Shown: one piece after another, positions 7,038 to 63,683 of the stretch | Position numbering within the stretch: position 1 is the first letter of the stretch | Layout of the letters: the number at the start of each line of letters is the position of its first letter | Source: Cytophagales bacterium | Lineage (GTDB): Bacteria > Bacteroidota > Bacteroidia > Cytophagales > Thermoflexibacteraceae | Assembly (NCBI GenBank): GCA_013299115.1 | Contig: JAAFKA010000007.1 | Location: 1-64,000, forward strand | DNA length: 64,000 nucleotides | Direction: 5' to 3' | Position numbers and translations under genes: made by a program | Notes under the pieces: model-generated | What the model saw: only the letters and a program-made list of their open reading frames with translations | Database searches by the model: none | What the model was told of the DNA's origin: nothing

Positions 7038-7664
7038 TTAAAACTTCAACATTAAAACTTCAACATTAAAAATTGGATTTGTTACCAATATCAAGTGCCT
7101 AACGGCACAAAAAAGAGGGGGGAGGGGGTGCATTTGTTTACTATAAATATTTCGTGCCTAACGGCACTTAAAACAAATATACGGCTTAAAACGTGATTTT
7201 TGGGTGTGGGGTGTAGGGCTTGCGTTGCGTTTTTCTGGGTTTTGTGTGCAAAAAAACGAAAAGAATTGCAAGCTAAATCTATAAAAAATACAAGAATGAA
7301 TAAAAGAGTTTGTGGGTTACAAATTACAAAATTGTATGAGGTGTCAAGTGTCTTAACAGTTTCTTGCACTAATTATCCGTTAATAATCATCTCAAACACT
7401 CAAAAGGGGCTTATAATATTGTAAAAGGTCGTAGAACTTAGTCATTTACGCCTTAATTTTTTGAAGAAAGGTATCCCTTTTGATTTTTGTACTCTTGTTA
7501 TTTGCCACAATGATAAAACTTTATTTTTGATAAAACAAACAAAAATATAAAAAATGATAAAAATACTTTTTTAGCTGAGTTTATCACTTAAACCTAATTT
7601 TTGATAAAAACCATAAAAAGTACAATTGAGATTTTTTTTTCTTTGGCAAGCCCTAAAGGGCTTG
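7038..7664. other. Gene-free stretch with short repeats
   Basis: I see no convincing gene here. It contains a 14-nt tandem duplication (AAAACTTCAACATT twice, about 7041-7068), two copies of the hairpin GTGCCTAACGGCAC (7095-7108 and 7154-7167), and several TTTTTGATAAAA-like sites between about 7500 and 7615 resembling those near the XRE gene. A small palindrome AAGCCCTAAAGGGCTT lies near 7649-7664, where the IS3 fragment is broken. Confidence 0.5.
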
Positions 7665-8240
7665 TTACGGATAATATTGTACGCCTTTATCTGAATGCGG
7701 AGTGCCGCCCAGATGAATCAAGTTTGTTGTTGTCGTTATTTTTCTTCTTTCAATGCCCAAATTTAGGGTTTCTAAGGCATTAGTTGCCTGTAAAGTTTTT
7801 GCAAGATTATAGCCAACAATGTACCTCGAATAAACATCCATGATAAAGCTAATATAGTAAAATTTGTCCAACACTTGAAAATAAGTGATATCTGATACCC
7901 AAACTTGGTTGACATCTGTAACCCACTTATTTTCAAGTAAATTGGTGTAATTGTAGCCTCTGGCTGCATAAGTGGTGCGTTTAAAAGAACGACATTTTAC
8001 ACTTTGCAAGCCATTGGTAATAGCTATTTCAATGAATTTATCTCTGGACGGCAACCTGTGTCCTATTTCAGGCTTTAAAAGAGAATATAGCTTTTTTAAG
8101 CCCATAACAGGGTGTTTAATACGTAATTTAATGATTTGTTCTACAAGCAGATCAGCAAGTAATAAATTTGTTTCTGCTGCTTGTTTGTATTGGTAAATAG
8201 CTTGTTTTGAGATAGTTACCAATTTGTATAAGTCTTTCAT
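7665..8240 (-). pseudogene. IS3-family OrfB transposase, truncated
   Basis: The 191-aa frame has the HTH_21-like linker (RIKHPVMGLKKLYSLLKPEI) and the start of the rve integrase core with two catalytic aspartates (VWVSDITYFQ and HSDKGVQY). It ends YYP-stop soon after the second motif. The segment with the catalytic glutamate is missing; a full OrfB has about 280 aa. Five extra residues (LGGTP) interrupt the otherwise invariant LIHHSD motif and come from a 15-nt insertion at 7697-7711. The start overlaps the OrfA stop (ATGA). It cannot be an active transposase. Confidence 0.85.
7697..7711. repeat. 15-nt micro-insertion in IS3 orfB
   Basis: GCGGAGTGCCGCCCA is inserted exactly between CTGAAT and GATGAATC. 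Removing it restores the canonical LIHHSD codons. The first 12 bases form a palindrome (GCGG-AGTG-CCGC). An identical copy lies at 8357-8371. Confidence 0.8.
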
Positions 8241-8461
8241 TTTCCATTGGTGTTCTCCTTTGTGGGAGGAAAACCAGTCGAGAGTAAGGCGGAAAAACTT
8301 TTTTTTAGGTCTATTTTAAGTTCTTGGCTACCGATTTCTAATAATTTATTTAGATAGCGGAGTGCCGCCCAATCAATCTCCATTTGCTTTTGACCTATAA
8401 TTCGTTCCAACTCTGCTTGGCGTTGCAAGACTGTTTGTAATTTGTGTGTTTCTGATTCCAT
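8237..8461 (-). pseudogene. IS3-family OrfA, N-terminal part missing
   Basis: The 74-aa frame holds the coiled-coil part of OrfA (LQRQAELERIIGQKQMEID then LNKLLEIGSQELKIDLKKSF). The N-terminal helix-turn-helix that OrfA normally carries is absent: only about 87 bases separate this frame from the element's terminal repeat. Five residues (WAALR) interrupt the EIDYLNK stretch and come from the 15-nt insertion at 8357-8371. It overlaps orfB by 4 nt. Confidence 0.7.
8357..8371. repeat. 15-nt micro-insertion in IS3 orfA
   Basis: GCGGAGTGCCGCCCA is inserted between ATA and ATC. Removing it restores the codons for MEIDYLNK. It is identical in sequence and orientation to the copy at 7697-7711. Confidence 0.8.
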
Positions 8462-8592: not shown

Positions 8593-8847
8593 ATGCAATT
8601 TTTCGGACAAAGAGTACCCAACCCAGAAGGTTACAGAAGATTAGAGCAAAGATACGGCGACGGTCGTGAGAGCCTTGCTACCATGATGGTCGATGCCTAT
8701 CGGGCTTTCCTCGCCTTAGCTTTGCCTCGTGATGTTACATTTTTCGGTGCAGCCAAAGCAAAAGTACAAAGATTTTTGCGTGAATTGGACAGCTTACCTG
8801 CGAGCAGTAATAGGACAGAATTTGTAGCTACCAAAGGCGTGGCATAG
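8593..8847 (+). CDS. Small conserved-looking hypothetical protein
   Basis: An 84-aa protein starting MQFFGQRVPNPEGYRRLEQR, with a helical middle (SLATMMVDAYRAFLALALPR) and a lysine/arginine-containing helix (AAKAKVQRFLRELDSLP). It has no signal peptide, and I know no family. The ATG at 8593 follows an A-rich leader (ACTAAAAATATG), usual for this phylum. Codon use is like the core genes and unlike the decayed region before it. It stands alone, followed by a hairpin at 8905-8959. Confidence 0.5.
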   Translation: MQFFGQRVPNPEGYRRLEQRYGDGRESLATMMVDAYRAFLALALPRDVTFFGAAKAKVQRFLRELDSLPASSNRTEFVATKGVA

Positions 8848-34919: not shown

Positions 34920-34970
34920 AATTTATCGAACACGAATGGTGCGACAACTCGCAAAGTGTCCGATAAATAG
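34920..34970. terminator. Inverted repeat between convergent genes
   Basis: Arms ATTTATCG(A)ACAC / GTGTCCGATAAAT enclose about 22 bases, between the DHOR gene and the convergent purF. Part of the ATCGAACAC / GTGTCCGAT word is shared with the 31846 palindrome family. Confidence 0.55.
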
Positions 34971-62819: not shown

Positions 62820-63683
62820 TTATTCCTTTGGCTCGGCTCGTAATTCCTCAATCTGTTCGACAGTCAAGCCTGTTAGGTCTGCAATAAGCTCATTATCAAG
62901 CATTTTTTTGATTGCATTCTTAGCTATTTCTATTTTTCCTTCTTGTTTGGCTGTATAACTCACACTATTCTCAATTCTTCTATTTTCTTGAAAACGGTTA
63001 TACATTTTTTTGTCTTCCTCTGTCAAATTTTCATAACGTAACTTTTCTTTGGCTTTCTCCAAACCTTTTGCTTTGAAACTATCCTTTACTTCGCTGTTTT
63101 TTAAAAAATAAATCCACTCATCCAGTGTATCTTTGGCAATGTCGTTAAAGTTGTTAATTTTTAGGATATAGTATTTAGGAAAAATATCTGCTATTTTGTC
63201 CACAGCATAATTCTTCTTTTGAAAATTGGTGGGCTTCAGAATATCATTTTTGTGCATCCCCACAAATTCGCCTTTGTATTCATACACATAATCTTTGCCT
63301 TGCCCCAAACCAAAATAGACAATATTGATAGAATATATTTTTTTGATAGTGCCATAAGGTTCTCCCTCTTTGATATATTCGGTTACTAATTTAGAAACTC
63401 CATACAACATTCGTTGAAAATAATCTGATTCTGATTCGTTTTGGACTTCAATCAACATGAGTTCACCGTATTGGCTTTTTACCAAAATATCAACCCTATT
63501 GTACTTATCATATTCGTCTTGTTTATTACTTTCACTTTCCAAAACATCGACAATGGTAACATCAAAACGAAGTAACTCTGATAAAAGACCTTCTAAAATG
63601 CCAAAATTTGCTCGGTCGGCGTCCCGATTATGGCGGAGCAATTTTTTCATTGCCCAATCAAAACGAATAAGTTTGCTGCTCAT
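62820..63683 (-). CDS. Rpn-type PD-(D/E)XK nuclease (PDDEXK_2 family)
   Basis: A 287-aa protein of the recombination-promoting nuclease family often annotated as a transposase. It starts FDWAMKKLLRHNRDADRANF and reads EGLLSELLRFDVTIVDVLE (typical 'FD.aFK.lf...n..iL..fL' pattern). The catalytic motif is YNRVDILVKSQYGELMLIEVQ (Asp, then ExQ), followed by YFQRMLYGVSKLVTEYIKEG. The C-terminus is a long helical part ending TGLTVEQIEELRAEPKE. Intact catalytic residues suggest a working nuclease. Multiple copies per genome are usual. Confidence 0.85.
   Translation of the reverse strand: MSSKLIRFDWAMKKLLRHNRDADRANFGILEGLLSELLRFDVTIVDVLESESNKQDEYDKYNRVDILVKSQYGELMLIEVQNESESDYFQRMLYGVSKLVTEYIKEGEPYGTIKKIYSINIVYFGLGQGKDYVYEYKGEFVGMHKNDILKPTNFQKKNYAVDKIADIFPKYYILKINNFNDIAKDTLDEWIYFLKNSEVKDSFKAKGLEKAKEKLRYENLTEEDKKMYNRFQENRRIENSVSYTAKQEGKIEIAKNAIKKMLDNELIADLTGLTVEQIEELRAEPKE

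Follow-up and report, generated by a model that had tools for sequence, protein, structure and literature searches.

SDR elements have been described in cyanobacteria; those of Nostoc, reportedly set out by Elhai et al. in 2008, are said to be very small dispersed non-coding hairpins of 21–27 nt that form several sequence families of shared structure and undergo nested insertion. Rickettsia palindromic elements (RPEs) are palindromes of about 100–150 nt that lie in frame within many genes, and MITEs leave target duplications. In the excerpts of the published accounts drawn on here, the size of SDRs is given as ‘some 20 bp’ (PMC2884548), and SDR5 inserts precisely between nucleotides 3 and 4 of HIP1 (PMC4390886). 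A further excerpt gives REPs as repeats of 20–40 bp with a GTAG or CGTC tag, often close to RAYT genes and some of them inside genes, gives MITEs as 70–300 bp with terminal inverted repeats of 15–30 bp, and places RPE-1 in a pseudouridine synthase gene (PMC3733652). REP and REPIN elements are associated there with RAYT transposases (PMC3116915, PMC3733652).

The movement of coding-free repeats shorter than 30 nt has long been an open question. The 15-nt unit described here makes it testable: one genome contains both filled and empty sites, and the carriers have relatives without bursts. Titles and abstract openings in the open-licence literature yielded no description of this sequence, GCGGAGTGCCGCCCA.

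The 15-nt unit and its host genes

The window, that is, the whole 64,000-nt stretch of DNA that was analysed, carries GCGGAGTGCCGCCCA as two exact copies on the plus strand, at 7697–7711 and 8357–8371, with the common orientation and the spacing of 645 nt that the original prediction had given. Scanning the window with up to three mismatches gave 3 matches against a mean of 0.53 in shuffled sequence, a count reached in 1 of 100 shuffles. The first copy lies in an IS3-type orfB with an integrase core (7665–8240, minus strand; Pfam rve, E 2.4e-11; phrog_157 transposase), in which the minus-strand reading of the unit is LGGTP. This orfB encodes 191 aa from its first ATG, and the frames of several relatives are longer, at roughly 300 aa. 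The second copy, read as WAALR on the minus strand, lies in a putative orfA (8237–8461, minus strand), assigned by its position and by a motif recognised in the original prediction; its product had no match in Pfam or PHROGs. The window IS3 proved to have no further copy at the DNA level in 98 genomes (its own included) or in a plasmid collection, and its matches elsewhere in the 98 genomes are pieces of at most 82 nt. A small ORF starting MQFFGQRVPNPEGYRRLEQRYGDG adjoins the IS3 at 8593–8847. A perfect 14-nt hairpin, GTGCCTAACGGCAC, occurs twice in the window (7095–7108 and 7154–7167) and recurs in the genome (L025, L335, L356), often beside GAAATATTTATAGTA; it is likely to be another dispersed small repeat.

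The source genome (G000; 5.5 Mb in 74 contigs) contains 21 exact copies of GCGGAGTGCCGCCCA, against none for the reversed control and a chance expectation of about 0.001 copies, calculated from base composition at the GC content of the window. With up to two mismatches the count rises to 52, again with none for the reversed control. Grouped by their flanks, the 21 copies represent 15 distinct sites: four copies share one site in an IS30-like element, three share one IS66 site and two share another site.

The sequence has no stop codon in any of its six frames, and copies inside genes use both strands and all three phases, yielding peptides such as AECRP, SGVPP, RSAAQ, WAALR, LGGTP and GRHSA. 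Because 15 is a multiple of three and the unit is stop-free in six frames, host genes remain open, as had been predicted, and the multiple of three holds at the verified sites. Freedom from stop codons in six frames is not rare in a GC-rich 15-mer and alone is no evidence of adaptation. The abundance of the unit in genes may be the mere outcome of a gene-dense bacterial genome and of selection against other insert lengths. The host labels IS66, Uma2, PDDEXK_2 (L003), N6_N4_Mtase, AAA_21, rve and Y1_Tnp are based on Pfam, and IS1-like, IS30-like, PspC-like and PD-(D/E)XK-like (L033, L317) were assigned by inspection; the label PDDEXK_2-type for L014 comes from its alignment to the loci with which L003 also aligns.

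Exact copies occur in 7 of the 98 genomes, the source genome included, and in more than one copy only in the source genome, G009 (12 copies), G011 (5) and G028 (42). The first three belong to one family, and G028 belongs to another family of the same order. In a survey of the source order, 88 of 390 genomes (again including the source genome) matched GCGGRNTGCCGCCCA, mostly once or twice, and the largest counts were 117 in G028, 31 in G000, 17 in G009, 9 in G011, 8 in G387 and 6 in G345; the reversed control is present in some of the 390 genomes, with at most two matches in any of them. A class-wide sample of 295 genomes, 11 of them from the source order, contained the source genome as its only multi-copy carrier and two genomes outside the order with one copy each. 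Among the matches listed for GCGGANTGCCGCCCA in genome and viral contig collections, all but one record, from unrelated organisms, have a single match, as expected by chance in collections of this size; the exception is L066, a Cytophagales metagenome-assembled genome with two copies. The distribution given above draws on the genome surveys and leaves these contig matches aside.

Filled and empty sites

Removal of the unit was predicted to restore an IS3 motif in OrfB. Among the 12 relatives that span the site (19 loci were given), six have a gap of exactly five residues between IH and HSD, so that the prediction stands for these; a gap of at least four residues lies nearby in 11 of the 12, and the alignments beyond the six exact ones are ambiguous. 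For OrfA, in which the motif predicted to be restored is MEIDYLNK, no relatives were found in IS3 loci, plasmids, phages or viral contigs, and a plasmid recombination protein was the one weak match (E 0.9) among the plasmids; by analogy with the other sites, the OrfA unit is probably an insertion too. The original prediction had named two ways in which it could fail, namely that the 15-mer is normal sequence of related IS3 elements or an assembly artefact. Both are scarcely credible, and nothing emerged in their favour. The first was checked for OrfB, in which six of the 12 relatives lack the unit and leave the insertion reading standing, and the second is very unlikely because several species carry the 15-mer in multiple genomic copies, which lie on either strand and in frame within genes.

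The clearest DNA-level comparison is provided by an IS1-like copy (L008) that contains four 15-nt units, two of them exact GCGGAGTGCCGCCCA, one GCGGATTGCCGCCCA and one a GTGG..CCAC variant. A sister copy in the same genome, 82% identical, has none of them, and at all four sites its flanks join without duplication or loss. IS30-like copies add four further pairs of filled and empty sites. Two of these copies, L001 and L018, differ over 1138 aligned nt by 2 mismatches and one 15-nt gap, which marks a recent change, the insert being of another sequence family; because a related insert occupies this position in the more distant copy L006, the change may be a precise loss rather than a gain. The window itself has empty sites: the paralogous copy L319 (90% identical) has GCGGATTGCCGCCCA at the place that corresponds to 7294–7295, and the paralogous copies L025 and L029 have GCTGGTGGCAGCCCC at the place that matches 7602–7603, and the window copies have neither.

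Chromosomal genes show the same pattern. We compared ten filled genes with loci of their relatives at the DNA level, scoring a contiguous 15-nt gap at the unit with an alignment shift of up to four bases, and in seven genes at least one relative lacks the unit. These are murE, pccB, L003 and L014 (both PDDEXK_2-type), a DNA methylase and two PD-(D/E)XK-like genes that have no Pfam match; some relatives of the same seven genes align with split or shifted gaps. In the other three (kynurenine monooxygenase, Uma2 and an AAA ATPase), no relative among the compared loci spanned the site. At the protein level, six residues of the kynurenine monooxygenase are unmatched in the one alignment given in which a relative of known structure extends as far as the site, seven residues of PccB are unmatched in both alignments given, and the linker of MurE is too variable for a visible gap.

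The unit has been inserted repeatedly, as 15 nt, at unrelated sites, in either orientation and in any reading phase, and without target duplication or loss. The absence of target duplication had been predicted from the window and holds at the verified sites (L008, the seven genes and the IS30-like copies). A search of the genome and its relatives, which the original prediction had proposed, uncovered many further copies, in frame in genes and missing from relatives or sister copies, and these lend weight to its suggestion that a very small palindrome, mobile or templated, has been inserted in frame. That the 15-mer is a genuine insertion can be regarded as nearly certain.

Several copies have evidently travelled inside IS elements, given that 21 copies fall at 15 sites, and the 15-mer could in principle have been born once in an IS and spread only along with it. 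The 15 distinct sites and the empty sites in chromosomal genes of relatives refute such hitch-hiking as the sole explanation, which retains a negligible probability. With a high degree of confidence, we regard the 15-mer as a mobile unit and not only as a passenger.

Hairpin plan, target sites and possible routes of movement

The unit, GCGG-AGTG-CCGC-CCA, follows a 4-4-4-3 plan, in which a 4-bp stem and a tetraloop (a 12-nt hairpin) are followed by a 3-nt CCA tail. The GCGG-AGTG-CCGC palindrome that had been pointed out earlier folds as described (−5.6 kcal/mol as RNA), and all eight units that were folded as RNA form a 4-bp stem, a tetraloop and an unpaired 3-nt tail. Among the 31 inexact matches in the source genome (up to two mismatches), 10 have one loop base changed (GCGGANTGCCGCCCA) and 11 have a compensated stem pair (GTGG..CCAC in 4, TCGG..CCGA in 7). 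A loose pattern, which also picks up chance matches, collected 179 family-like units. Of these, 146 have G-C and 7 have T-A as the outer pair, and the second pair is C-G in 156, T-A in 4 and G-C in 4. Many uncompensated stem variants are also present among these units (at the outer pair, A-C in 6, T-C in 4 and G-G in 4), which weighs against the reading as a mobile micro-palindrome.

Other sequences share the plan. Self-comparison of the analysed part of the source genome revealed 40 distinct indels of 8–45 nt, 20 of which are 15 nt long, a peak that is biased for the GCGGAGTGCCGCCCA family because the sequence compared had mostly been chosen for the 15-mer. By reading of the list, ten of the twenty belong to this family and ten have other sequences. 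Six of the latter ten fit the 4-4-4-3 plan with a shift of up to four bases, against 8.4% of random places that were not GC-matched (P ~5e-5): GCTG-GTGG-CAGC-CC[CT] (twice), GTTG-GAGG-CAAC-CCC, GCGA-GTTG-TCGC-ACC, CAGC-AACG-GCTG-CCG and TCGG-GACG-CCGA-CCG; the remaining four do not fit. Several 15-nt inserts of different sequence in the source genome therefore have a common architecture, so that the plan, rather than one sequence, may be what is recognised. Two of these inserts are represented in the window. TCGG-GACG-CCGA-CCG lies at 63613–63627 (minus strand), where a 77% identical paralogue (L365) lacks the 15 nt, and GCGA-GTTG-TCGC-ACC, identical in sequence to an insert in the IS1-like copy L008, lies at 34938–34952 (minus strand) as a putative insert.

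An unbiased 464-kb sample of the source genome showed no 15-nt peak, with 1 of 28 indels of 6–45 nt having this length; that single indel fits the plan and is the insert at 63613–63627. In G009, on contigs mostly chosen for matches, 7 of 12 indel entries are 15 nt long and represent four distinct inserts, three of them of the GCGGAGTGCCGCCCA family, and none of the 4 indels in a control genome without the unit (G058) has this length. Together, GCTGGTGGCAGCCC and GTTGGAGGCAACCC occur 47 times in the source genome, with none for the control; the three GTTG contexts examined all lie within one longer repeat.

K-mer counting also brought out other small hairpin repeats, which are real and mostly longer than the 15-nt unit. 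ACGCTAAAGCGT occurs 10 times in 464 kb of the source genome, and ATG[CT]TACA adjoins one side of each of the six copies given; TTGTCAAG-hairpin-CATTGCCAA units are further dispersed short repeats (L348–L367 of the genome sample and the window). At several loci of G028 (L296, L300, L308 and others), 15-nt units alternate with the 12-nt CCGTTGCGGGAA, a hairpin plus tail on a 3-3-3-3 plan whose length is likewise a multiple of three.

Target sites prefer (A/T)|(G/A). The 42 target rows from G000, G009, G011 and G001 were cleared of near-identical flanks and arrays; among them are variants, two or more copies of a single composite repeat and AGGGGTTGCCCTCCG (probably a chance match). At +1, 26 of these rows have G and 1 has T, and at −1, 25 have A and none has C. 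A third set of 12 rows has A at −1 in 8 and G at +1 in 5. The 13 rows from G028 have G at +1 in 10, and A at −1 in only 4 (G in 6), so that the preference for A at −1 is absent there. The (A/T)|(G/A) preference resembles the unit’s own tail|head junction, CCCA|GCGG, as it occurs in tandem arrays. Such head-to-tail arrays, with a period of 15, were found in G028 and several other genomes. Units also nest in the loop of another dispersed palindrome in the source genome, of which 10 filled and 19 empty entries coexist (each palindrome counts on both strands); in G009, a different palindrome holds units in its loop. The hosting palindrome of the source genome, AACTATTGGCAG..CTGCCAAAGTT, is imperfect and dispersed and has variable loops (L323, L325, L326, L488).

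Genomes of two genera (G345 and G387) share the position of the unit, behind the start codon, in a PspC-like gene (L371 and L380), and in PDDEXK-like genes it lies at the same site in homologues from different genomes or genes; such coincidences could reflect shared descent or hot spots. Overall, the insertion proposed in the original prediction stands, and its scope was too narrow: the units form several sequence families, use all phases and both strands, nest within other repeats and mostly have hosts other than IS3.

Precise 15-nt units, the lack of target duplication, the tailed hairpin, junction-like targets and arrays suggest either a single-stranded intermediate or template switching. 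In the latter case, a nascent 3′ end would jump through 1–2 nt of microhomology to a resident copy, copy the unit and return, and no dedicated element or enzyme would be needed. Template switching accounts for the missing target duplication and for the 1–2 nt that many sites share with the tail|head junction. It would also suit an IS66 copy (L019) in which the 14-nt insert is part of a unit only, because the first part of the unit, CGGAA, was already in the target, as if synthesis had been primed there. Alone, however, it leaves unexplained why whole 15-nt units have the same two ends and why different sequences share the 4-4-4-3 plan, and we judge it unlikely. Whole units with fixed ends and a plan common to different sequences favour a single-stranded intermediate over template switching. 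We think it probable that the 15-mer is a non-coding mobile micro-palindrome, moving most likely through a single-stranded hairpin of unit length.

In such a scheme, something would recognise the 4-4-4-3 plan rather than a single sequence; the unit would be copied through a unit-length hairpin of single-stranded RNA or DNA; and a polymerase or strand-transfer enzyme encoded elsewhere would join it to (A/T)|(G/A) sites that have a nick or a lagging-strand gap and resemble the tail|head junction CCCA|GCGG. Taken by itself, the single-stranded hairpin intermediate falls a little short of an even chance. More tentatively still, the units may represent mobile DNA of a class whose members share an architecture and not a sequence, in which a trans-acting machine with a length rule spreads 15-nt single-stranded hairpins.

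A search for a mobiliser gene, RNA or master locus found none. One candidate was a REP/RAYT-like system, in which the hairpin would be recognised by an HUH (Y1) transposase and the units moved as single strands. HUH chemistry is compatible with hairpins that have a short single-strand tag and leave no target duplication, and the hairpin, tail and undisturbed targets of the unit fit this. Y1_Tnp matches are present in all four many-unit genomes (3 in G000, 8 in G009, 3 in G011 and 1 in G028), and in the source genome about 170 nt separate one copy of the unit-hosting palindrome from a Y1_Tnp gene (G000:C20), of which AACTATTGGCAG..CTGCCAAAGTT may be a REP. However, Y1_Tnp occurs in 67 of the 98 genomes, most of which lack the unit; the unit has no GTAG or CGTC tag; and in G011 it is itself inserted within a Y1_Tnp-like gene (with a score just under the Pfam cut-off). 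We examined 19 Y1_Tnp loci (2 of the 3 in G000, 6 of 8 in G009, 1 of 3 in G011, the one in G028 and 9 in other genomes), and with up to two mismatches none had a unit of the GCGGAGTGCCGCCCA family (family A); one had a 2-mismatch match to another unit family. On this count of 0 of 19, RAYT was rejected as the cognate mobiliser, and a REP/RAYT-like mechanism in general seems improbable. RAYT-like genes at L471, L475, L478, L479 and L485 have short words of their own repeated around them, some with GTAG, such as CCCCGTAGGGGC in L471 and CGTTTTGTAGAA in L475.

Comparison with known small repeats

If the unit moves by itself, the lower size limit for mobile DNA drops to 15 nt, and the unit would be among the smallest mobile DNA elements known, or the smallest. 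It would also be a named recurrent source of five-residue insertions in bacterial proteins. If the class defined by architecture is real, its length and its stop-free sequence would permit life inside genes, essential ones included.

The unit resembles REP and REPIN elements in being a short palindrome tagged at one end, with some copies inside genes. It differs from them in its length of 15 nt, in its CCA tail in place of a GTAG or CGTC tag and in the absence of a cognate RAYT gene flanked by the unit (0 of the 19 Y1_Tnp loci examined). Like RPEs, it occurs in frame in conserved genes (murE, pccB, kynurenine monooxygenase, a DNA methylase and others), although RPEs are several times longer. 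With MITEs it shares dispersal, the lack of coding capacity and inverted arms, but its 15-nt gaps have no repeated flank, that is, no target-site duplication. Because the definitions of REPs, RPEs and MITEs each fail on at least one of the features tested, we do not place the unit in these families.

The SDR elements of cyanobacteria, compared here by description only, appear on our best reading to be the nearest known kind. Both are very small dispersed repeats at many unrelated sites (15 in the source genome for the unit), both show nested, precise insertion, and both have compensated stem variants and a structure common to several families, to which the unit adds uncompensated variants. Unlike SDRs, the unit is 15 nt long at the verified sites (with one 14-nt partial copy, L019), outside the SDR range of 21–27 nt, is open in six frames, often lies in frame inside conserved genes and appears to belong to another phylum. 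We therefore place it among the very small mobile repeats, smaller than its nearest relatives by description and outside any named family.
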